From positions 4,839,001-4,903,000 of the forward strand of contig NZ_CP075566.1 in the NCBI RefSeq assembly GCF_018502625.1: a stretch of 64,000 nucleotides of DNA. The letters are read 5' to 3'. The position numbers were made by a program, and so were the translations under genes. Positions 6,897 through 63,559 of the stretch are shown piece after piece (position 1 is the stretch's first letter; every line of letters begins with the position of its first letter). This DNA is from Pseudomonas hormoni (GTDB taxonomy: Bacteria; Pseudomonadota; Gammaproteobacteria; Pseudomonadales; Pseudomonadaceae). The notes beneath the pieces were generated by a model. That model did no database searches. It saw only the letters and a program-made list of their open reading frames with translations, and was not told the origin of the DNA.

Positions 6897-8561
6897 TCAG
6901 GCCAGTTTCTTGTGCCGTACCCGATGGGGCTGGGCAGCCGCTTCGCCGAGGCGTTTTTTACGATCGGCTTCGTACTCGGAGTAGTTGCCTTCGAAGAACA
7001 CCGCTTGCGAGTCGTCTTCGTACGCCAGGATGTGGGTCGCGACGCGGTCAAGGAACCACCGATCGTGAGAGATCACAATGGCGGCGCCCGGGAAGTCCAG
7101 CAGGGCTTCTTCCAGGGAACGCAGGGTTTCAACGTCGAGGTCGTTGGACGGTTCGTCGAGCAGCAGGACGTTACCGCCCTCCTTCAGGGTCAGGGCCAGG
7201 TGCAAGCGACCGCGCTCACCACCGGACAGGTCCTTGACGAACTTCTGCTGATCGCCGCCCTTGAAGTTGAAGCGACCGACGTAGGTACGCGACGGAATCT
7301 CGTAGTTGCCGATGCGGATCTGATCCGAACCGTCGGAGATTTGCTGGAACACGGTCTTGCTGCCATCCAGATCTTCACGGCTCTGATCGACACAGGCCAG
7401 TTGCACGGTTTCCCCGACTTCGATGCTGCCCGAATCCGGTTGTTCCTTGCCCATCAGCATGCGGAACAGGGTGGATTTACCCGCGCCGTTACCGCCGATC
7501 ACGCCAACGATGGCGCCTTTAGGCATAGAGAACGACAGGTTGTCGATCAACACGCGATCGCCGTAGCCCTTGGAAACGTTCTTGAACTCGATGACCTTGT
7601 CGCCCAGGCGTGGACCGGCCGGGATGTAGATCTCGTTGGTTTCCGAACGCTTCTGGAATTCCTGCGATTGCATTTCTTCGAAGCGTTGCAGACGAGCCTT
7701 GGATTTCGACTGGCGGGCCTTGGCGCCTTTGCGCACCCACTCCAGTTCTTCCTTCATGGCTTTTTCGTGAGCCGACTGCGACTTGGATTCAGCCGCCAGA
7801 CGGTCGGACTTGGCTTCGAGCCAACCGGAGTAGTTGCCCTCGTAAGGGATACCGGCGCCGCGGTCGAGCTCAAGGATCCAGCCAGCGACGTTGTCCAGGA
7901 AGTAACGGTCGTGCGTGATCGCAACAACAGTGCCCGGGAAGTCGTGGAGGAAATGCTCCAGCCAGGCGACGGAGTCGGCGTCCAGGTGGTTGGTCGGTTC
8001 GTCGAGCAGCAGCATGTCGGGGGCGGACAGCAGCAGGCGGCAAAGGGCCACACGACGCTTTTCACCACCGGAGAGGAATTCGACCTTGGCGTCCCAGGCC
8101 GGCAGACGCAGCGCATCGGCGGCAACTTCCAGTTGACGATCCAGGTTGTGACCGTCGCTGGCTTGCAGGATGGCTTCGAGCTTGGCCTGTTCGGCGGCCA
8201 GTTTGTCGAAGTCGGCATCTTCATCAGCGTAAGCCGCGTAGACCTCGTCCAGGCGCGCCTGGGCGTTCTTGATCACGCTGACCGCTTCCTCGACCACTTC
8301 ACGCACGGTTTTGGTCGGGTCCAGGATCGGCTCTTGCGGCAGGTAGCCGATGTTCAGCTCCGGCATCGGACGGGCTTCGCCCTCGAACTCGGTGTCGACG
8401 CCAGCCATGATTTTCAGCAGCGTGGATTTACCCGAACCGTTAAGGCCGAGCACGCCGATCTTGGCGCCTGGGAAAAAGGACAGCGAAATGTTTTTCAGGA
8501 TTTCCCGCTTCGGCGGAACAACTTTGCCCAGCCGATGCATGGTGAAGACGTATTGAGCCAT
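6897..8561 (-). CDS. ettA: energy-dependent translational throttle protein EttA
   Basis: This 554-residue ABC-F protein matches EttA in length and sequence from its first residues (MAQYVFTMHRLGKVVPPKRE). It has two ABC domains with Walker A motifs GLNGSGKST and GGNGAGKST, and signatures LSGGEKRR and LSGGERGR. The arm insertion (EGNYSGWLEAKSDR) and the charged linker that reaches the ribosomal E site are present. EttA binds the ribosome and gates entry into the elongation cycle according to the ATP/ADP ratio. It is a cytosolic single-gene unit that shares its terminator region with the convergent gene. Confidence 0.97.
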   Translation of the reverse strand: MAQYVFTMHRLGKVVPPKREILKNISLSFFPGAKIGVLGLNGSGKSTLLKIMAGVDTEFEGEARPMPELNIGYLPQEPILDPTKTVREVVEEAVSVIKNAQARLDEVYAAYADEDADFDKLAAEQAKLEAILQASDGHNLDRQLEVAADALRLPAWDAKVEFLSGGEKRRVALCRLLLSAPDMLLLDEPTNHLDADSVAWLEHFLHDFPGTVVAITHDRYFLDNVAGWILELDRGAGIPYEGNYSGWLEAKSDRLAAESKSQSAHEKAMKEELEWVRKGAKARQSKSKARLQRFEEMQSQEFQKRSETNEIYIPAGPRLGDKVIEFKNVSKGYGDRVLIDNLSFSMPKGAIVGVIGGNGAGKSTLFRMLMGKEQPDSGSIEVGETVQLACVDQSREDLDGSKTVFQQISDGSDQIRIGNYEIPSRTYVGRFNFKGGDQQKFVKDLSGGERGRLHLALTLKEGGNVLLLDEPSNDLDVETLRSLEEALLDFPGAAIVISHDRWFLDRVATHILAYEDDSQAVFFEGNYSEYEADRKKRLGEAAAQPHRVRHKKLA

Positions 8562-56507: not shown

Positions 56508-57344
56508 TCAATGCACCTCCTCCAAATCGTCATGCAGCAGCCCGAAGATATTGCGTTTCATCTCGATAAACGAGCGCTCCATGACCATGTCCAGGGTCCG
56601 TGGGCGTTCGATCGGCACGTCCAGAATCTGCTTGATCCGCCCGGGCCTGGCGCCCATCACGTAGACCCGGTCGCCCAGCAAAATCGCCTCGTCGATATCG
56701 TGGGTCACGAACAGCACGGTCTTCTTGCTGTTGCCCCAGACCCGCAACAACAGCTGCTGCATTTGCAGGCGCGTCTGGCTGTCGAGGGCGCCGAAGGGTT
56801 CGTCCATCAGCAGGATCTGCGGATCGTTGGCCAACGCCCGGGCAATCGCCACGCGCTGCATCATGCCGCCGGACAGCTGCTTGGCGTAGTTGTCGGCGAA
56901 CCCCGTCAGGCCCACTTCATTAACGTAGTAGTCGACAATTTCCTTGCGCTGCGCCGCCGCCATGCCACGACGCTTGAGGCCGAACTCCACGTTCTGGCGC
57001 ACGGTCAGCCACGGGAACAGCGTATAGCTCTGGAACACCATGCCGCGATCCGCGCCGGGGCCCTGCACTTGCTGACCACCGACATAGATCTCGCCTTCCG
57101 TGGGCTCGTTCAGGCCAGCGGTGAGGTACAGCAAACTCGACTTGCCGCAACCCGACGGCCCGACCAGCACGGCGAACTGCTGATCCGGGACTTCGAATGA
57201 AACCTGATCCAGCGCGGTGAACACGCCACCATCGGGCTTTTGATACCGCAGGCTGACCTTGTCCACTTGCAGGCGTGGCGCGGCGTGCGCCGGGGCAGCC
57301 ACCGGGGTGACGAAACGCGGGTTGACGGCGGTTACTGAGCCCAT
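56508..57344 (-). CDS. NitT/TauT-family ABC transporter ATP-binding protein
   Basis: The 278-residue ATPase has Walker A GPSGCGKSS near residue 71, Q-loop MVFQSYTLFPW, signature LSGGMMQRVAIARAL, Walker B LLMDEPFGALD and H-loop FVTHDIDEA. It energises the importer encoded upstream. The ATG at 57344 overlaps the permease end by 13 bases, showing translational coupling. The longer in-frame frame upstream is just the permease gene read out of phase. Confidence 0.92.
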   Translation of the reverse strand: MGSVTAVNPRFVTPVAAPAHAAPRLQVDKVSLRYQKPDGGVFTALDQVSFEVPDQQFAVLVGPSGCGKSSLLYLTAGLNEPTEGEIYVGGQQVQGPGADRGMVFQSYTLFPWLTVRQNVEFGLKRRGMAAAQRKEIVDYYVNEVGLTGFADNYAKQLSGGMMQRVAIARALANDPQILLMDEPFGALDSQTRLQMQQLLLRVWGNSKKTVLFVTHDIDEAILLGDRVYVMGARPGRIKQILDVPIERPRTLDMVMERSFIEMKRNIFGLLHDDLEEVH

Positions 57345-58135
57345 GCGGCAATCCTCAGACGAAGGAAACGGAACAGTTGATCGGTGACCAGGCCCAACAG
57401 GCCGATGATCGCGATGGCGAGGAAAATCACATCCACCTGAAAGCCGCGCATGGCCTTGAGGCTCAGGTAACCCAGGCCACTGGAAGCGGCCACCAGTTCG
57501 GCGACCACCAGGTAAGTCCAGGCCCAGCCCATAGTCACGCGCAAGGTGTCGAGCACACCCGGCAAAGAAGCCGGCGCGATCACATGCAGCACCGCATCGC
57601 GACGGTTCGAACCCAAGGTGTAAGACGCATTGATCAGGTCCTTGGAGATGCCCTTGGACACGTCCGCGATCATCACCAGTTGCTGGAAAAACACGCCGAA
57701 GATGATCACCGAGACACGCTGCTCCAGGCCGATGCCGATCCACAGAATGAACAGCGGCACGAACGAGGTCACCGGCAGGTAACGGATGAAATTCACCATC
57801 GGTTCAAGGAACGCCTGGACGATGCGAAAGCTGCCCATCAGCAACCCCAGCGGCACCGCCACCAACGATGAGACGATGAAACCGACCATCACCACTTCAA
57901 CACTTGCCCACACATGCTGGCCGAGTGTGCCGTCGCGGCCCAGACGCACGGCGGCTTCGACCACCGCGCCGGGTGTCGGGAGGAACATGCCCGGCACCAC
58001 GCCGCCGTAAGACAACCCGGCCCACAGACCGACCAACAACACCCAGGCCAAGCCGCTCGCGCTCCAGATCACCGACACTGGCAAACCGGTCTTGGGCGTG
58101 ATGCAGCGGCTCAGCCATGAATTGCGCTTGAACAT
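57332..58135 (-). CDS. NitT/TauT-family ABC transporter permease
   Basis: The 267-residue inner-membrane protein has about six helices and the BPD signature region with the EAA-type loop LGSNRRDAVLHVIAPASLPGV. It pairs with the ATPase and binding protein encoded next to it. It begins 9 bases after the binding-protein stop. Confidence 0.92.
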   Translation of the reverse strand: MFKRNSWLSRCITPKTGLPVSVIWSASGLAWVLLVGLWAGLSYGGVVPGMFLPTPGAVVEAAVRLGRDGTLGQHVWASVEVVMVGFIVSSLVAVPLGLLMGSFRIVQAFLEPMVNFIRYLPVTSFVPLFILWIGIGLEQRVSVIIFGVFFQQLVMIADVSKGISKDLINASYTLGSNRRDAVLHVIAPASLPGVLDTLRVTMGWAWTYLVVAELVAASSGLGYLSLKAMRGFQVDVIFLAIAIIGLLGLVTDQLFRFLRLRIAAWAQ

Positions 58136-58144
58136 GCGAACCTC

Positions 58145-59131
58145 CTACAGCGGGGTGACGAAGCGGTTGTCGATCAGGTCATCATTGCTGACGTTGTAGG
58201 GTTTGCCCTGCAATTCACTGGCGGTTTCATTGGCCAGTTTGATCAGCGGTTCGCTGTCGCCCGGCTTGCCTGGCGAGCCTAGGAGTTTTTCGCTCATGGC
58301 CTGATCGTAGAAGCGCACGCCTTGCGCGGCAGCTTCCAGTTCCTTCGGATCGGCGAGGTAACCACCGACGCCCTTGGCCATGATTTTGTAGGCTTCCTTC
58401 GGATGGTCCTTGGTGTACTGCACCGCTTTGTACAGACCGGCGACCAAGGCCTTGACGTCTTCCGGCTGCTTCTCGATGACCGTGCAATTGAGCGCGACCA
58501 CGTCGACGATCACTCCCGGCGTACTGCTGCTGTCGATCAGCACTTTGCCTTGTTGCTTGCTGCGCACCATCGACAGGTGCGGTTCCCAGGTCACGGCGGC
58601 CGGCACGCGACCGGCGATGAACGCGGTGGCGGCGTCGTCAGCCGTCATGTTCTGCACGGTGATGTCGCTCATGCTCATGCCGTGTTTTTTCAGCAAGTAC
58701 GACAGCCAGAACTGCGAGGTGGAACCTTCGTTCACCGCCACCGCTTTGCCCTTCAGTTCCTGCAGACTCTTGACGTCCTTGCCTACCAGAACACCGTCGC
58801 CACCATGGCTGTCATCCAGTGCAGCGACCGCTTTGAAGCAGAATTGCGGACGGTACTTGAGCACTTCGTCGATGGTCGACGCCGAGCCGGACAATTCGCC
58901 CGAGGCTTGCGCGGCCATGTACATCGAGGCTTCTTCGACGACGGGCAATTCAACGGTCAGACCGTTTTCCTTGAAGTAGCCCAGGTCCTGGGCGAGGTAG
59001 AGCGTGCCGTAACCGACCCACGTGGTGTGGCCGATGGACAGGGTGCCGGCCTGGGCGCTGGTGGCGACCGTGGCGGCGATGGCGGTGATCGCCAGTGGAT
59101 GAGCGACGCGGGTAAGCAAGGACTTGATCAT
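58145..59131 (-). CDS. NitT/TauT-type periplasmic substrate-binding protein
   Basis: The 328-residue protein has a signal peptide (MIKSLLTRVAHPLAITAIAA, cleavage after AQA near residue 28) and a mature NMT1/SsuA-like fold: LSIGHTTWVGYGTLYLAQD, EEASMYMAAQASGELSGS, VAVNEGSTSQFWLSYLLKKH, and PAAVTWEPHLSMV. The ligand is not known; relatives bind sulfonates, nitrate or thiamine precursors. The ATG at 59131 has a GGGAGTGCTCC upstream. It is first in the ABC operon, 153 bases downstream of the 49-base element. Confidence 0.92.
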   Translation of the reverse strand: MIKSLLTRVAHPLAITAIAATVATSAQAGTLSIGHTTWVGYGTLYLAQDLGYFKENGLTVELPVVEEASMYMAAQASGELSGSASTIDEVLKYRPQFCFKAVAALDDSHGGDGVLVGKDVKSLQELKGKAVAVNEGSTSQFWLSYLLKKHGMSMSDITVQNMTADDAATAFIAGRVPAAVTWEPHLSMVRSKQQGKVLIDSSSTPGVIVDVVALNCTVIEKQPEDVKALVAGLYKAVQYTKDHPKEAYKIMAKGVGGYLADPKELEAAAQGVRFYDQAMSEKLLGSPGKPGDSEPLIKLANETASELQGKPYNVSNDDLIDNRFVTPL

Positions 59132-59283
59132 GGAGCACTCCCAAAGCTGTTGATTTAGTTTTGTCATGGGCAGTACGGCCAGCAGCCTTTGGAGAAGAGC
59201 TGCCACGGGTGGTCTCTGAGGGACCTTGTTGTGGGCAGCGTTCTGCTGACTGGCGAGGTCGATGTTGGACCAAGGTGGGGATT

Positions 59284-59332
59284 AGGAAAATTAGGAAATA
59301 TGTCGATGGGAGTGATGAAAAAACTGGGTAGC
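59284..59332 (-). promoter_or_regulatory. 49-bp conserved element, copy upstream of the ABC operon
   Basis: A 21-base block, a 10-base variable spacer and the 18-base block ATGAAAAAACTGGGTAGC (plus strand). The same order and spacing occur at 62470-62518, with 17 of 18 and 18 of 21 identities and an unlike spacer. It is presumably an operator-promoter; orientation is given as that of the genes it precedes. Confidence 0.7.
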
Positions 59333-59412
59333 GTGCGCTGAAAATGAGCGCTGTTTGCGGGGGTGCACGGGGTGGGTGCAAAAGGTTAGAAGTGTGTTGA
59401 ATGGGCTAACGC

Positions 59413-59505
59413 AATCGCGGGCAAGCCTTGCTCCTACAGGGATTGTGTCGGCCGCAAAATTTGCGTTCAACACATCACCTGTAGGAGCAAGGCTTGCCCG
59501 CGATA
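59413..59505. repeat. REPIN, inverted arrangement
   Basis: ATCGCGGGCAAGCCTTGCTC and its inverse; TAGGAGC ends face inwards. Lies 25 bases beyond the aminotransferase stop. Confidence 0.88.
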
Positions 59506-59530
59506 AGGTCCGCAGGGCCTTCAGACAATC

Positions 59531-60901
59531 TCAGAGCCGGCCGTATTCCTGCGCTGTACGATCCACCGCTTTCAGGGTCTTGCCAACCAACTCATCCACC
59601 TCTTCCCGACTGGCAATCAACGCCGGCGCCATGATCATCCGCCCCAGCGTCGAACGAATGATCACCCCTTCCTCAAACCCGATCGTGCGGCAGCGCCAGG
59701 CAATGTCGTTCTCGTTGGCAAAACGCTTGCGGCTGGTTTTATCCTCGGCCAATTGCAACGCCGCAACCATCCCGACGCCCTGGATATCCCCCACCAACGG
59801 GTGATTACCAAACACCTCGCGCAAGCACTTTTGCAGGTACGGGCCGATGTCATCCTTGACCCGCGTCACCACGCCTTCATCGCGCAACGCCTTGAGGTTG
59901 GCGATGGCCACCGCTGCCGCCACCGGGTGCCCCGAATAGGTCAGGCCGTGGGCAAACACCCCGCCCTGCTCCACCAGCACCTGCGCCATTTTCTTCGACA
60001 GAATCAGCCCACCCATGGGGATGTAACCGGAGGTCAGACCCTTGGCGATCGACAGCGTGTCCGGCTCGAAACCGAAGTACTCATGGGCGAACCATTCGCC
60101 GGTGCGACCGAAGCCACCAATCACTTCGTCGGCGCACAACAGCACGTCGTACTTGCGGCAGATCCGTTGAATTTCCGGCCAGTAACTTTCTGGTGGGAAG
60201 ATCATCCCGCCCGCGCCCTGGAACGGTTCGGCGATGAAGCCGGCGACCTTGTCCGCGCCCAGTTCGAGAATCTTCGCTTCCAGTTGCTGCGCCGCCCGCA
60301 AGCCAAACTCGGCCGGGGTCAGGTTGCCCTCATGGGCGAAGAAGTACGGCTCGTCGATGTGCTCGATGTCGGGAAGCATGCCACCCATTTCGTGCATGAA
60401 CTTCATGCCACCGAGCGCCGTCGCCGCCAGGGTCGAACCGTGGTAACCGTTCCAGCGACCGATCATGACTTTCTTCTCGGGCTTGCCGAGGATCGTCCAG
60501 TAACGACGCACGGTGCGGATCAGCACCTCGTTGGCTTCGGAGCCGGAGTTGGTGTAGATCGCGTGGCTGTAGTGCCCCGGCAACAGGCTGAACAACAGCT
60601 CCGAGAGCTCGATCACCTGCGGGTGGGTTGTGTGGAAAAACATGTTGTAGTACGGCAGTTGCTCAAGCTGTTGCGTCGCCGCAGCGGCCAGGTCCTTGCG
60701 GCCGTAACCGAGGTTGGTGCACCACAACCCGGACATGCCGTCGAGGTAACGCCGACCATCGTTGTCCCACAGGTGCAGGCGCTCGCCACGGACCATCACC
60801 CGCGGTCCTTCGTCGTTGAGCGCTTTCTGATCGACGAATGCGTGGATGTGGTGAGCAGCGTCGGCGGCCTGGTAGTCGCGGGTTTCACGTGGTGTGGTCA
60901 T
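59531..60901 (-). CDS. class III PLP-dependent aminotransferase (omega-amino compound:pyruvate type)
   Basis: The 456-residue enzyme moves an amino group, usually a terminal amine, to pyruvate or another ketoacid. Landmarks are GMSGLWCTNLGYG, TNSGSEANE (cofactor phosphate), DEVIGGFGRTG (Asp ring contact) and SIAKGLTSGYIPMGG with the PLP Lys. It resembles SpuC-type polyamine aminotransferases and omega-amino-acid:pyruvate enzymes. It starts 21 bases after the aldehyde dehydrogenase stop, so the two should be one operon, converting an amine to aldehyde and then acid. Confidence 0.9.
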   Translation of the reverse strand: MTTPRETRDYQAADAAHHIHAFVDQKALNDEGPRVMVRGERLHLWDNDGRRYLDGMSGLWCTNLGYGRKDLAAAATQQLEQLPYYNMFFHTTHPQVIELSELLFSLLPGHYSHAIYTNSGSEANEVLIRTVRRYWTILGKPEKKVMIGRWNGYHGSTLAATALGGMKFMHEMGGMLPDIEHIDEPYFFAHEGNLTPAEFGLRAAQQLEAKILELGADKVAGFIAEPFQGAGGMIFPPESYWPEIQRICRKYDVLLCADEVIGGFGRTGEWFAHEYFGFEPDTLSIAKGLTSGYIPMGGLILSKKMAQVLVEQGGVFAHGLTYSGHPVAAAVAIANLKALRDEGVVTRVKDDIGPYLQKCLREVFGNHPLVGDIQGVGMVAALQLAEDKTSRKRFANENDIAWRCRTIGFEEGVIIRSTLGRMIMAPALIASREEVDELVGKTLKAVDRTAQEYGRL

Positions 60902-60922
60902 CGCCAGTTCTCCGTTTTGTTG

Positions 60923-62428
60923 TTAGCGCAGCTGAAACCAAGTGGTCTTCAACTGGGTGTATTTATCGAAAGAGTGCAGCGACAGATCGCGGCCGAAACC
61001 GGACTGTTTGCCGCCGCCGAACGGCACGGTCACGTCGAGCGCATCGACGCTGTTCACCGACACCGTGCCCGCGCGCAATTGCCGCGCCACGCGGTGGGCG
61101 CGATTGAGGTCGTCGGTCCACAGCGACGCAGCCAGACCGTAGACGCTGTCGTTGGCCAGTTGCAAGGCGTGTGCCTCGTCATCGAACGCGGTGACCGCCA
61201 GCACCGGGCCGAACACTTCATCGCGAAACAGCGGCATGTCCGGGCTCACATTGGTGAAAATCGTTGGCTGGATGAAGTTGTCGGAGCCGTTAAAGATCGA
61301 CTGCCGACCGCCACACAGCTTGGTCGCGCCCTGGCGCTGGGCCTGCTCGATGAACTTCATGATGCGTGCGGTCTGACGGCTGTCGACAATCGCCCCGGCG
61401 CTGCTCGACGGGTCCAGCGGATCGCCCGGCAGCCAGCGTTCGACCTGCGCCTTGAGACGCTCGACGAACTCGTCATGGATCGAACGCTGCACCAGCAACC
61501 GCGAGTTGGCCGAACACACTTCGCCCTGATTGAAGAAGATCCCGAACGCGGCTTTCTCGGCCGCCAGATCCAGGTCCTGACAATCGGCGAACACCAGGTT
61601 GGCGCTCTTGCCGCCGCACTCCAGCCATACCTGTTTCAGGTTCGATTGCGCGGAATACTGCATGAAATATTTGCCGACTTCGGTGGAGCCGGTGAACACC
61701 AGGCAATCGACGTCCGGGTGTAAACCAAGGGCTTTGCCGGTTTGTTCACCGAGGCCCGGCAGCACGTTCAGTACGCCCGCCGGCAGCCCGGCTTCCAGCG
61801 CCAGCTCGGCCAGACGCAGTGCGGAAAACGGTGATTGCTCGGCGGGTTTGAGGATCACCGAATTCCCTGCCGCCAGCGCTGGCGCGAGTTTCCACGCGGC
61901 CATGTCCAGCGGGAAATTCCACGGCACCACGGCGGCAACCACGCCCAATGCTTCGCGGGTGATGGTTGCCAACACGTTTTGTGCGCTCGGCGCGATCTGG
62001 TCGTAGAGTTTGTCGAGGCTTTCGGCGTACCAGCGAAACACCCCGGCGGCGCCCGGCACGTCGATGTTGTAGGCGTCCATCACCGGTTTGCCCATGTTCA
62101 GCGAATCGAGCAGTGCCAGTTCTTCGCGATGAGTCATGATCAGGTCGGCCAGACGCAGCAGCACTTGTTTGCGCTCCGCAGGCGAACGCGCCGCCCAGGT
62201 GCCGGCCTCAAACACCTGACGCGCATTTTTGACTGCGGCGTCGACGTCTTCAGCGCCGCAAGCGGCCACGTTGGCCAGGCGCTGGCCGGTGGCTGGGTTG
62301 ATCGCGGCGAAGGTCTGGCCCGACTGCGCCGAACGGGGTTTGCCGTCGATCAGGGCCAGGTCGGGAAACTGCAGCGCAGCGGCTTTTTTTTGCCAATATG
62401 CAAGCTCGAACACGTTCAGATGCTCCAT
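60923..62428 (-). CDS. NAD(P)-dependent aldehyde dehydrogenase (PuuC/KauB-like)
   Basis: The 501-residue enzyme oxidises an aldehyde to its acid. The catalytic Cys is in FFNQGEVCSANSRLL, the general base Glu in LECGGKSANLV, and the cofactor-binding Lys in VILKPAEQSPFSA. FTGSTEVGK marks the Rossmann turn. Closest known types act on gamma-glutamyl-aminobutyraldehyde or omega-aminoaldehydes. It heads an operon with the aminotransferase and is divergent from a LysR gene; the 49-base element lies 42 bases before its ATG. Confidence 0.92.
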   Translation of the reverse strand: MEHLNVFELAYWQKKAAALQFPDLALIDGKPRSAQSGQTFAAINPATGQRLANVAACGAEDVDAAVKNARQVFEAGTWAARSPAERKQVLLRLADLIMTHREELALLDSLNMGKPVMDAYNIDVPGAAGVFRWYAESLDKLYDQIAPSAQNVLATITREALGVVAAVVPWNFPLDMAAWKLAPALAAGNSVILKPAEQSPFSALRLAELALEAGLPAGVLNVLPGLGEQTGKALGLHPDVDCLVFTGSTEVGKYFMQYSAQSNLKQVWLECGGKSANLVFADCQDLDLAAEKAAFGIFFNQGEVCSANSRLLVQRSIHDEFVERLKAQVERWLPGDPLDPSSSAGAIVDSRQTARIMKFIEQAQRQGATKLCGGRQSIFNGSDNFIQPTIFTNVSPDMPLFRDEVFGPVLAVTAFDDEAHALQLANDSVYGLAASLWTDDLNRAHRVARQLRAGTVSVNSVDALDVTVPFGGGKQSGFGRDLSLHSFDKYTQLKTTWFQLR

Positions 62429-62469
62429 GGGCTTTTCTTGTGTCTGGATGGTGGCCCAGGCCCGTGTCG

Positions 62470-62518
62470 AGGAAAAATAGTAAAAATGTCTTCGCAGACC
62501 ATGAAAAAACTGGGCAGC
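62470..62518 (-). promoter_or_regulatory. 49-bp conserved element, copy upstream of the aldehyde dehydrogenase operon
   Basis: Has the 18-base block ATGAAAAAACTGGGCAGC (62501-62518) and a 21-base AT-rich block (62470-62490) at the same 10-base spacing as the copy at 59284. It is 42 bases from the dehydrogenase ATG and 91 bases from the LysR ATG, in the position of a shared divergent control region. Confidence 0.7.
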
Positions 62519-62608: not shown

Positions 62609-63559
62609 ATGTCGAGTCCATCCACCCCGAGGTTTGCCGTGGCTGCCTACAACCTGCGTCAATTGAAGTACTTCATCACCACCGTCGAATGCGGCAGCGT
62701 CGCCGAGGCGTCGCGCAAGCTGTACATCGCACAGCCGGCGATCTCCACGGCGATCAAAGGCCTGGAAGACAGCTTCGGCGTGCAACTGCTGATCCGTCAT
62801 CACGCCCAAGGCGTGTCCCTGACCCCCAGCGGGGCGCGCTTCTACCGCAAGGCTCAGGAACTGTTGCGCATGGCCAAGGAGTTCGAACAGAACGCCCTCG
62901 CCGACAACGACGTGGTGGCCGGGCAGATCGACATCGGCTGCTTTGAAACCGTCGCCCCGCTGTACCTGCCGCAATTGATTGCCGGGTTCTCGGCGCTGTA
63001 CCCCGGCGTGAAAATCCGCATCCGCGACGGCGAGCAGCAAGAGTTGGTGCAAGGCCTGACCTCGGGCACCTTCGACCTGGCGATCCTCTATGAACACGAC
63101 CTCGACGCCACCATCCAGACCGAACCGCTGATGCCCGCGCAACGGCCTTATGCATTGCTACCGGCAGATCATCGCTTTGCCCAGCTCAAGCAAGTGTCCC
63201 TGCGTGATCTGTGCCTGGAACCGATGATTCTGCTGGACGTGCAACCGAGCCGGACCTACTTCGTCAGCCTGTTCGAAGAGCTTGGTCTTACGCCACACAT
63301 CGCCTTCAGCTCACCGTCGATCGAGATGGTCCGGGGCATGGTCGGCCAAGGGTTCGGCTTCTCGATCCTGGTCACCCGCCCGCATTCGGAATGCACCTAC
63401 GACGGGCAGAAAGTGGTGTGCGTGGACATCGTCGAAGACGTCACCGGCTCAGGGCTGGTGGCGGCGTGGCTCAAACGCGGGCAACTGACCAAACCGGCGC
63501 AGTTGTTTGCGGATTACTGTCGAGAGCAACTGACCGCGAAGGCCGGGACAAGAACCTGA
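62609..63559 (+). CDS. LysR-type regulator of the amine/ABC cluster
   Basis: The 316-residue protein has a LysR HTH (about residues 14-75: YNLRQLKYFITTVECGSVAE then AQPAISTAIKGLEDSFGVQL) and an effector domain (GQIDIGCFETVAPLYLPQLI) of the kind seen near NitT/TauT and amine genes. It is divergent from the aldehyde dehydrogenase gene, the classical LysR arrangement. ATG at 62609 starts MSSPSTPRFAV. It probably recognises the 49-base element or part of it; no experiment is implied by the sequence. Confidence 0.88.
   Translation: MSSPSTPRFAVAAYNLRQLKYFITTVECGSVAEASRKLYIAQPAISTAIKGLEDSFGVQLLIRHHAQGVSLTPSGARFYRKAQELLRMAKEFEQNALADNDVVAGQIDIGCFETVAPLYLPQLIAGFSALYPGVKIRIRDGEQQELVQGLTSGTFDLAILYEHDLDATIQTEPLMPAQRPYALLPADHRFAQLKQVSLRDLCLEPMILLDVQPSRTYFVSLFEELGLTPHIAFSSPSIEMVRGMVGQGFGFSILVTRPHSECTYDGQKVVCVDIVEDVTGSGLVAAWLKRGQLTKPAQLFADYCREQLTAKAGTRT

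Follow-up and report, generated by a model that had tools for sequence, protein, structure and literature searches.

Two copies of a probable HinK-dependent promoter link a NitT/TauT-type importer with an aldehyde dehydrogenase-aminotransferase operon in Pseudomonas hormoni

A 64,000-nucleotide stretch of Pseudomonas hormoni DNA (assembly GCF_018502625.1, contig NZ_CP075566.1, positions 4,839,001 to 4,903,000; hereafter the window) contains two similar 49-bp segments, at 59284-59332 and 62470-62518. Both lie upstream of minus-strand operons, the first encoding a NitT/TauT-type ATP-binding cassette (ABC) importer and the second an aldehyde dehydrogenase and an aminotransferase. The locus raises the question of what this duplicated element is, which protein would recognize it and which substrate the genes under its control might serve. 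The original prediction had been a protein-bound control element used by the product of a divergent LysR gene and defining a regulon of import, transamination and oxidation. Our analysis indicates that the two copies are very probably complete LysR-type activator promoters for the divergently encoded regulator, an ortholog of Pseudomonas aeruginosa HinK, and that they probably tie the importer to transamination and oxidation of an amine.

In a gapless alignment the two copies were identical at 36 of 49 positions, and the block identities and 10-base spacing first described proved exact (18/21 for the first 21 bases, 1/10 for the spacer and 17/18 for the last 18 bases). When CCCAGTTTTTTCAT-N10-GACATNTTTNCTA was searched with up to 3 mismatches, the two copies were the sole matches both in the window, with none in 100 shuffles, and in the 6,481,491-base one-contig genome, where the reversed pattern gave none. 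A second pattern with the 3' flank added again found these two copies alone in the whole genome. With a much looser pattern the genome yielded the two copies and 8 weak sites at 2 mismatches, compared with 4 in the control; none of the 8 scored as operator plus promoter, and no third copy of comparable score was found in the genome. A functionless repeat, recently duplicated or dispersed, would explain the similarity of the copies and nothing beyond it, and we give this origin practically no chance, since the two copies stand alone in the genome, their spacers differ, the two classes of copy hold their own differences across many species, and the element occurs in other genera. A dispersed repeat was ruled out by the two-copy count together with this conservation. 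With up to 3 mismatches the element was found in 62 of 298 genomes of the genus (reversed pattern 0), and at a limit of 2 mismatches it occurred in 116 of 398 genomes of the family, representing 6 of 19 genera (control 0 among the matches listed). The fixed 10-base gap was kept across genus and family, and these comparative tests support the idea of a protein-bound control element.

How far does the element extend? A gene-side block, CnTGGnCCAnCATC, lies at equal distance in both copies, so that the repeat exceeds 49 bp and forms a promoter of about 73 bp. Over 60 non-redundant copies the consensus for positions -2 to 45 was CTRCCCAGYTTTTTCATnnnnnnCGAnSACATWTTTACTAATTTTCCT, in which ATTTTCC, CGA and CTR were conserved although they were not among the bases used for selection. 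Alignment of the flanks revealed a further block at fixed distance, CCAmYATC at 61-68, with 47-55 of 60 copies agreeing at six constant positions, and a T at position 57 in 57/60. We propose TTTTCC at 39-44 as the -35 box and CAmyAT at 62-67 as the -10 box, with a 17-bp spacer and a putative start near position 74; a -10 box inside the second block (TACTAAT) was considered and dropped once the flanks had been aligned. These -35/-10-like blocks were kept at fixed distance in the 60 copies and were also present in other genera. The two 49-bp copies are real, but conservation runs on past them to include the proposed -35 and -10 boxes. Likewise, the spacer is unlike between the two window copies only, whereas in the set of 60 it is partly conserved, with CGA at positions 21-23 in 53, 49 and 54 copies, respectively.

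Upstream of the predicted -35 box, two T-tract units would serve as sites for the regulator: site 1, AGYTTTTTCAT (4-14), near -65, and site 2, ACATWTTTACT (26-36), near -43. Copy A comprises element positions -2 to 70 (59259..59331, minus strand; window position = 59329 - p) and precedes the importer operon. Its putative recognition site AGTTTTTTCAT is at 59315..59325, its putative activation site ACATATTTCCT at 59293..59303, and its proposed -35 and -10 boxes, TTTTCC and CAACAT, are at 59285..59290 and 59262..59267, 17 bp apart. Copy B (62445..62517, minus strand; window position = 62515 - p) lies in the divergent region between the LysR and dehydrogenase genes and precedes the aldehyde dehydrogenase-aminotransferase operon, with candidate sites AGTTTTTTCAT at 62501..62511 and ACATTTTTACT at 62479..62489 and candidate boxes TTTTCC at 62471..62476 and CACCAT at 62448..62453. 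Tetrameric LysR activators of the BenM type are described, in the portion of the literature drawn on here (PMC4730206), as having a high-affinity site around -65 plus activation sites around -35 and around -10, and, with the start placed as above, the layout of our element matches this geometry. It differs from the BenM type in that the sites are tandem T-tract units rather than two clear dyads. A clear dyad was seen by eye only in LysR-proximal variants of some relatives, e.g. CGAGC-N5-GCTCG in L130. A T-N11-A-type pair, with T at position 11 in 60/60 and A at 23 in 54/60 copies, is nonspecific. With position models, the promoter scores of sites in named loci (defined below) averaged 27.4 before the dehydrogenase gene (68 sites) and 35.4 before the binding-protein gene (63 sites), against a background maximum of 10.4 over 20,000 windows.

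Which regulator would act at these promoters? The divergent gene beside copy B (62609..63559, plus strand) encodes a protein with the Pfam domains HTH_1 and LysR_substrate that matched PDB 6m5f with 583 bits (residues 10-311) and 3fzv with 582, the next distinct relative reaching 124. We take both entries, which are titled probable transcriptional regulator, to be PA0218/HinK, and judged by its sequence the window protein is the ortholog of this P. aeruginosa regulator. A substrate guess from enzyme families alone (polyamines, KauB/SpuC) had been unproductive; the structure match of the LysR protein gave HinK instead. In P. aeruginosa, PA0218, PA0219, PA0220 and PA0221 are hinK, hinD, hinA and hinC, and HinK is the regulator of histamine catabolism, with imidazole-4-acetic acid as its active signal; the sections of the paper considered here further report that HinK binds the hinD promoter, regulates its own gene, controls hinF and has an operator motif found in more than one promoter (PMC8231116). 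PA0218/HinK is absent from the main text of a motif atlas (PMC8041468).

The distribution of the element follows that of the LysR gene. A LysR ortholog (E up to 1e-60) was detected in 193 of the 298 genus genomes and the importer binding protein in 75, and the LysR gene was present in 61/62 genomes with the element and 74/75 with the binding protein (lists compared by eye), the sole exception in both sets being G223, a genome 73% complete. In the genus stretches examined, the element mostly lay between the LysR gene and a dehydrogenase or aminotransferase gene, or before the binding-protein gene. When the LysR protein was used to search named genomes, 449 relatives were obtained, and the best 80, a choice biased to close ones, supplied our named loci; the element was upstream of the LysR gene in all 80, and in four of these (L255, L257-L259) it was about 1.1 kb from LysR, beside the dehydrogenase gene. 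It accompanied the LysR gene even in loci without the enzymes and the importer. Ten named loci were LysR-only, the examined stretch lacking genes for a dehydrogenase, an aminotransferase and an ABC system alike. Nine of them had an operator part scoring 30.0 to 52.1 and a promoter part scoring -13.8 to -50.1, and the tenth, L202, had kept both parts. The nine correspond to about three lineages, not nine events, on a tree inspected by eye (L195 lies outside it). If the LysR protein depends on the operator to control its own gene, the operator should persist while the core promoter may decay, which is the pattern seen, and such loci amount to a natural dissection of operator from promoter. LysR loci lacking the full element had a variant of its layout close to the LysR gene. 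In 12 of 13 such loci this variant was the best operator match of the examined locus, oriented away from LysR at a distance of 41-103 nt, although the scores were low (27.2 in L267, -8.0 to 7.9 in the other 11); L147 was the exception. Tracking of the LysR gene by the operator, together with HinK orthology, favors the divergent LysR protein as the regulator, and the element is, with high probability, a HinK operator/promoter.

A side observation concerns a LysR clade about 80% identical and located beside an NCS1 permease gene (L157-L159, L165, L175, L177-L179). At the corresponding position its element has diverged (CATATWTTTTTTAAGGTYTGnnGCAACAAACTTAMTAATTTAYCT or nearly so), and the clade would represent a sister regulon.

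The element could also be a conserved promoter for another factor, an alternative sigma factor or a different regulator, with the LysR gene as a bystander; the -35/-10-like pair within it, and two genomes (G263, G273) that carry the full element without the close LysR clade, would fit such a role. We consider this very improbable, because LysR-only loci retain the operator mostly without -35/-10, the reverse of the pattern expected for a sigma-factor site, because the operator follows the LysR gene and the sites at the corresponding position in the diverged LysR clade have themselves diverged, and because HinK has been published as binding the hinD promoter (PMC8231116, in the sections considered). 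An alternative sigma factor was set aside on account of the nine of ten LysR-only named loci in which the operator was kept without -35/-10.

Next, we considered the genes that the two HinK-type promoters would drive. About 130 bp separate the end of copy A, and about 150 bp the end of its 49-base core, from the downstream gene for the NitT/TauT-type substrate-binding protein (58145..59131; PF09084/PF13379, with SsuA_fam below cut-off), which is followed by genes for the permease (57332..58135; PF00528) and the ATP-binding protein (56508..57344; PF00005), all on the minus strand; for the latter the PF00005 call gave 56508-57335 and the start was placed by eye at MGSVTAVNP. Behind copy B, likewise on the minus strand, are genes for an aldehyde dehydrogenase of the KauB/PuuC type, HinD-like by locus position (60923..62428; PF00171; nearest solved relatives 4lih and KauB, PDB 6b4r, the latter at 587 bits), and a class III omega-aminotransferase, HinC-like by locus position (59531..60901; PF00202, NF009068, PDB 4a6r). 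Between the end of the aminotransferase gene and copy A we observed a repetitive extragenic palindromic (REP)-type inverted repeat (59414-59504; 45-nt arms, 87% complementary) with dozens of similar matches in the genome, which may act as a separator of the two operons.

The association of importer and element was assessed with 102 binding-protein genes starting in L100-L259, 82 of which had an operator plus promoter site within 420 bp upstream, while the other 20 were situated 140-322 bp behind an aminotransferase gene. With repeats removed, 79 of 97 distinct importer loci had their own site and 18 stood behind dehydrogenase-aminotransferase genes, with the operator 3.1-4.7 kb upstream, before the dehydrogenase gene of the same gene run; one of the 18, L117, had a low promoter-part score of 6.7. 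All split-off importer operons examined had the element in front of them. Hence duplication of the element accompanies the division of a single operon into two, and the proposed regulon of import, transamination and oxidation is supported by these comparisons. The order ABC system, aminotransferase, aldehyde dehydrogenase, LysR was found in 45 loci and the order aminotransferase, HinA, aldehyde dehydrogenase, LysR in 8 (some genomes counted twice). These 8 loci have an APC permease in the order dehydrogenase-permease-aminotransferase, with an ABC system as well in L118 and L122, and in L160 and L162 the APC permease had an element of its own. In L116, L152, L154 and L367 the LysR-adjacent element points toward a gene for a PotD-like binding protein, and L101, L103, L105, L110, L112 and L113 combine an NCS1 permease with a GMC oxidoreductase. 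In these six loci and their relatives, the GMC oxidoreductase gene is located within the dehydrogenase operon, which suggests that an alcohol might be another source of the same aldehyde. Separately, genus g9 has a third element before a different APC amino-acid permease (L351:4481-5866 and L354:2313-3692).

From co-regulation and slot replacement we derive a putative role for the ABC system in histamine uptake. That it imports the same amine that is catabolized appears somewhat likelier than that it does not. The fuller proposal, which we favor by the narrowest of leads, is that the NitT/TauT system serves specifically to import histamine (or a near imidazole amine), was drawn into the regulon through a whole HinK promoter of its own and has replaced the APC permease HinA, the regulon keeping its enzymes and regulator and swapping unrelated importers (APC, NitT/TauT ABC, PotD-like ABC, NCS1). 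In the open-access literature we found no report of a NitT/TauT importer under HinK and nothing on this gene cluster.

As for the substrate, the next steps in P. aeruginosa PAO1 and Pseudomonas putida U are reported to require hinFLHG, encoding a flavin adenine dinucleotide (FAD)-monooxygenase, an enamine deaminase and two amidases or a peptidic-bond hydrolase (for PAO1, PMC8231116, in the sections considered). Elsewhere in the genome of the window (G000:C1:2937428-2941164, equal to L369:7429-11165), genes for a flavin monooxygenase (PF13738), RidA (PF01042), DUF1028 (PF06267) and an M20 hydrolase (PF01546) run in one direction and agree with hinFLHG in protein family and gene order. In L358, from another genus, a monooxygenase 77% identical to this one is encoded under a full element next to LysR. 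RidA and M20 genes like these occurred within 7 kb of LysR in 28 of 160 LysR loci (some genomes counted twice). Before the same run the operator scored 43.8 in L358, 15.4 in L114, 13.1 in L116 and 17.7 in L128, L258 and L259; in L258 and L259 the weak match stands before the RidA gene, and none was found in L120, L100 and L246. Given the hinFLHG-like operon in the genome, a histamine-type substrate is held to be the likelier one, and histamine or a close imidazole amine is our probable candidate.

The element might instead be a HinK operator in a pathway for an amine other than histamine, or for an alcohol via the GMC enzyme of relatives, with the acid product activating the regulator. In line with this, the importer (APC, NitT/TauT ABC, NCS1, PotD-like ABC) and the first enzyme (aminotransferase or GMC oxidoreductase) vary by lineage, the hinFLHG-like run is without a full element upstream, and PA0222, the binding protein beside the PAO1 hin cluster, is reported to bind γ-aminobutyric acid (GABA) and not histamine (PMC8231116, in the sections considered). 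We nevertheless regard a non-histamine substrate as unlikely, in view of the close HinK ortholog (583 bits), of the PAO1 order hinK-hinD-hinA-hinC in 8 loci and L368, PAO1 and PAK being strains tested with histamine according to the sections considered, and of the hinFLHG-like run itself.

The arrangement resembles the HinK regulon of P. aeruginosa (PA0218; hinDAC, PA0219-PA0221; hinFLHG) in that an orthologous LysR gene is divergent from the aldehyde dehydrogenase gene, an aminotransferase belongs to the set and a hinFLHG-like run lies elsewhere in the genome. The autoregulation reported there in the sections considered has its counterpart here in the operator next to the LysR gene, and both systems have a conserved operator motif in more than one promoter. 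In contrast to P. aeruginosa, the importer here is a NitT/TauT ABC system with its own promoter copy, the cluster contains no APC permease (HinA) and the hinFLHG-like run has a weak upstream match only. The hin1-hin3 clusters of P. putida U (HinABCDFLHGIJK) share the permease, the aminotransferase HinC, the aldehyde dehydrogenase HinD and the regulator HinK; there, however, hinK stands alone, the permease is HinA, and a NitT/TauT system is not mentioned in the portion of the account drawn on here. We infer binding, activation, effector and substrate from such comparisons of sequence and published systems, and the mechanism would be as follows. A HinK tetramer would bind both T-tract sites (about -65 and -43), which lie two helical turns from each other. 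Upon build-up of the effector, which is imidazole-4-acetate in P. aeruginosa, it would recruit RNA polymerase to the adjoining -35/-10 boxes, one promoter driving the aldehyde dehydrogenase-aminotransferase operon and the other the NitT/TauT importer. Amine uptake, transamination and oxidation would thus rise together, and the oxidation product would signal back.

Several points weigh against this HinK-dependent scheme. The sameness of our element and the published HinK operator motif is something we infer. In G263 and G273 the full element precedes the aldehyde dehydrogenase-aminotransferase genes and the LysR gene found is only of the diverged clade, beside an NCS1 permease, so either cross-recognition or another regulator is required. 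The presence of a GMC oxidoreductase or NCS1 permease in the operon of some relatives means that the substrate may differ by lineage. No full element precedes the hinFLHG-like run in the genome of the window, the best operator score being a weak -4.8, 122 nt upstream. In L161 an element-like operator (8027-8063) has no gene for a dehydrogenase, an aminotransferase or an importer in its vicinity; its neighbors encode an ECF-type sigma factor and a protein that, by eye, is FecR-like. Finally, the copies used to train the position models belong to the same genus, and some come from genomes that were also scored; the 80/80 count is to that extent not independent.

The regulator, the enzymes and, in principle, the operator are already known from P. 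aeruginosa and P. putida. Candidates for novelty are the NitT/TauT importer as a target of HinK that takes the place of HinA, the promoter anatomy and the family-wide conservation; the importer's substrate would follow from its place in the regulon. A repeat that looked like chance becomes a precise, testable promoter map for the use of histamine-type amines across the Pseudomonadaceae, and a function can be proposed for a NitT/TauT importer that annotation would label a taurine or sulfonate system. The regulon would be one whose exchangeable component seems to be the importer.

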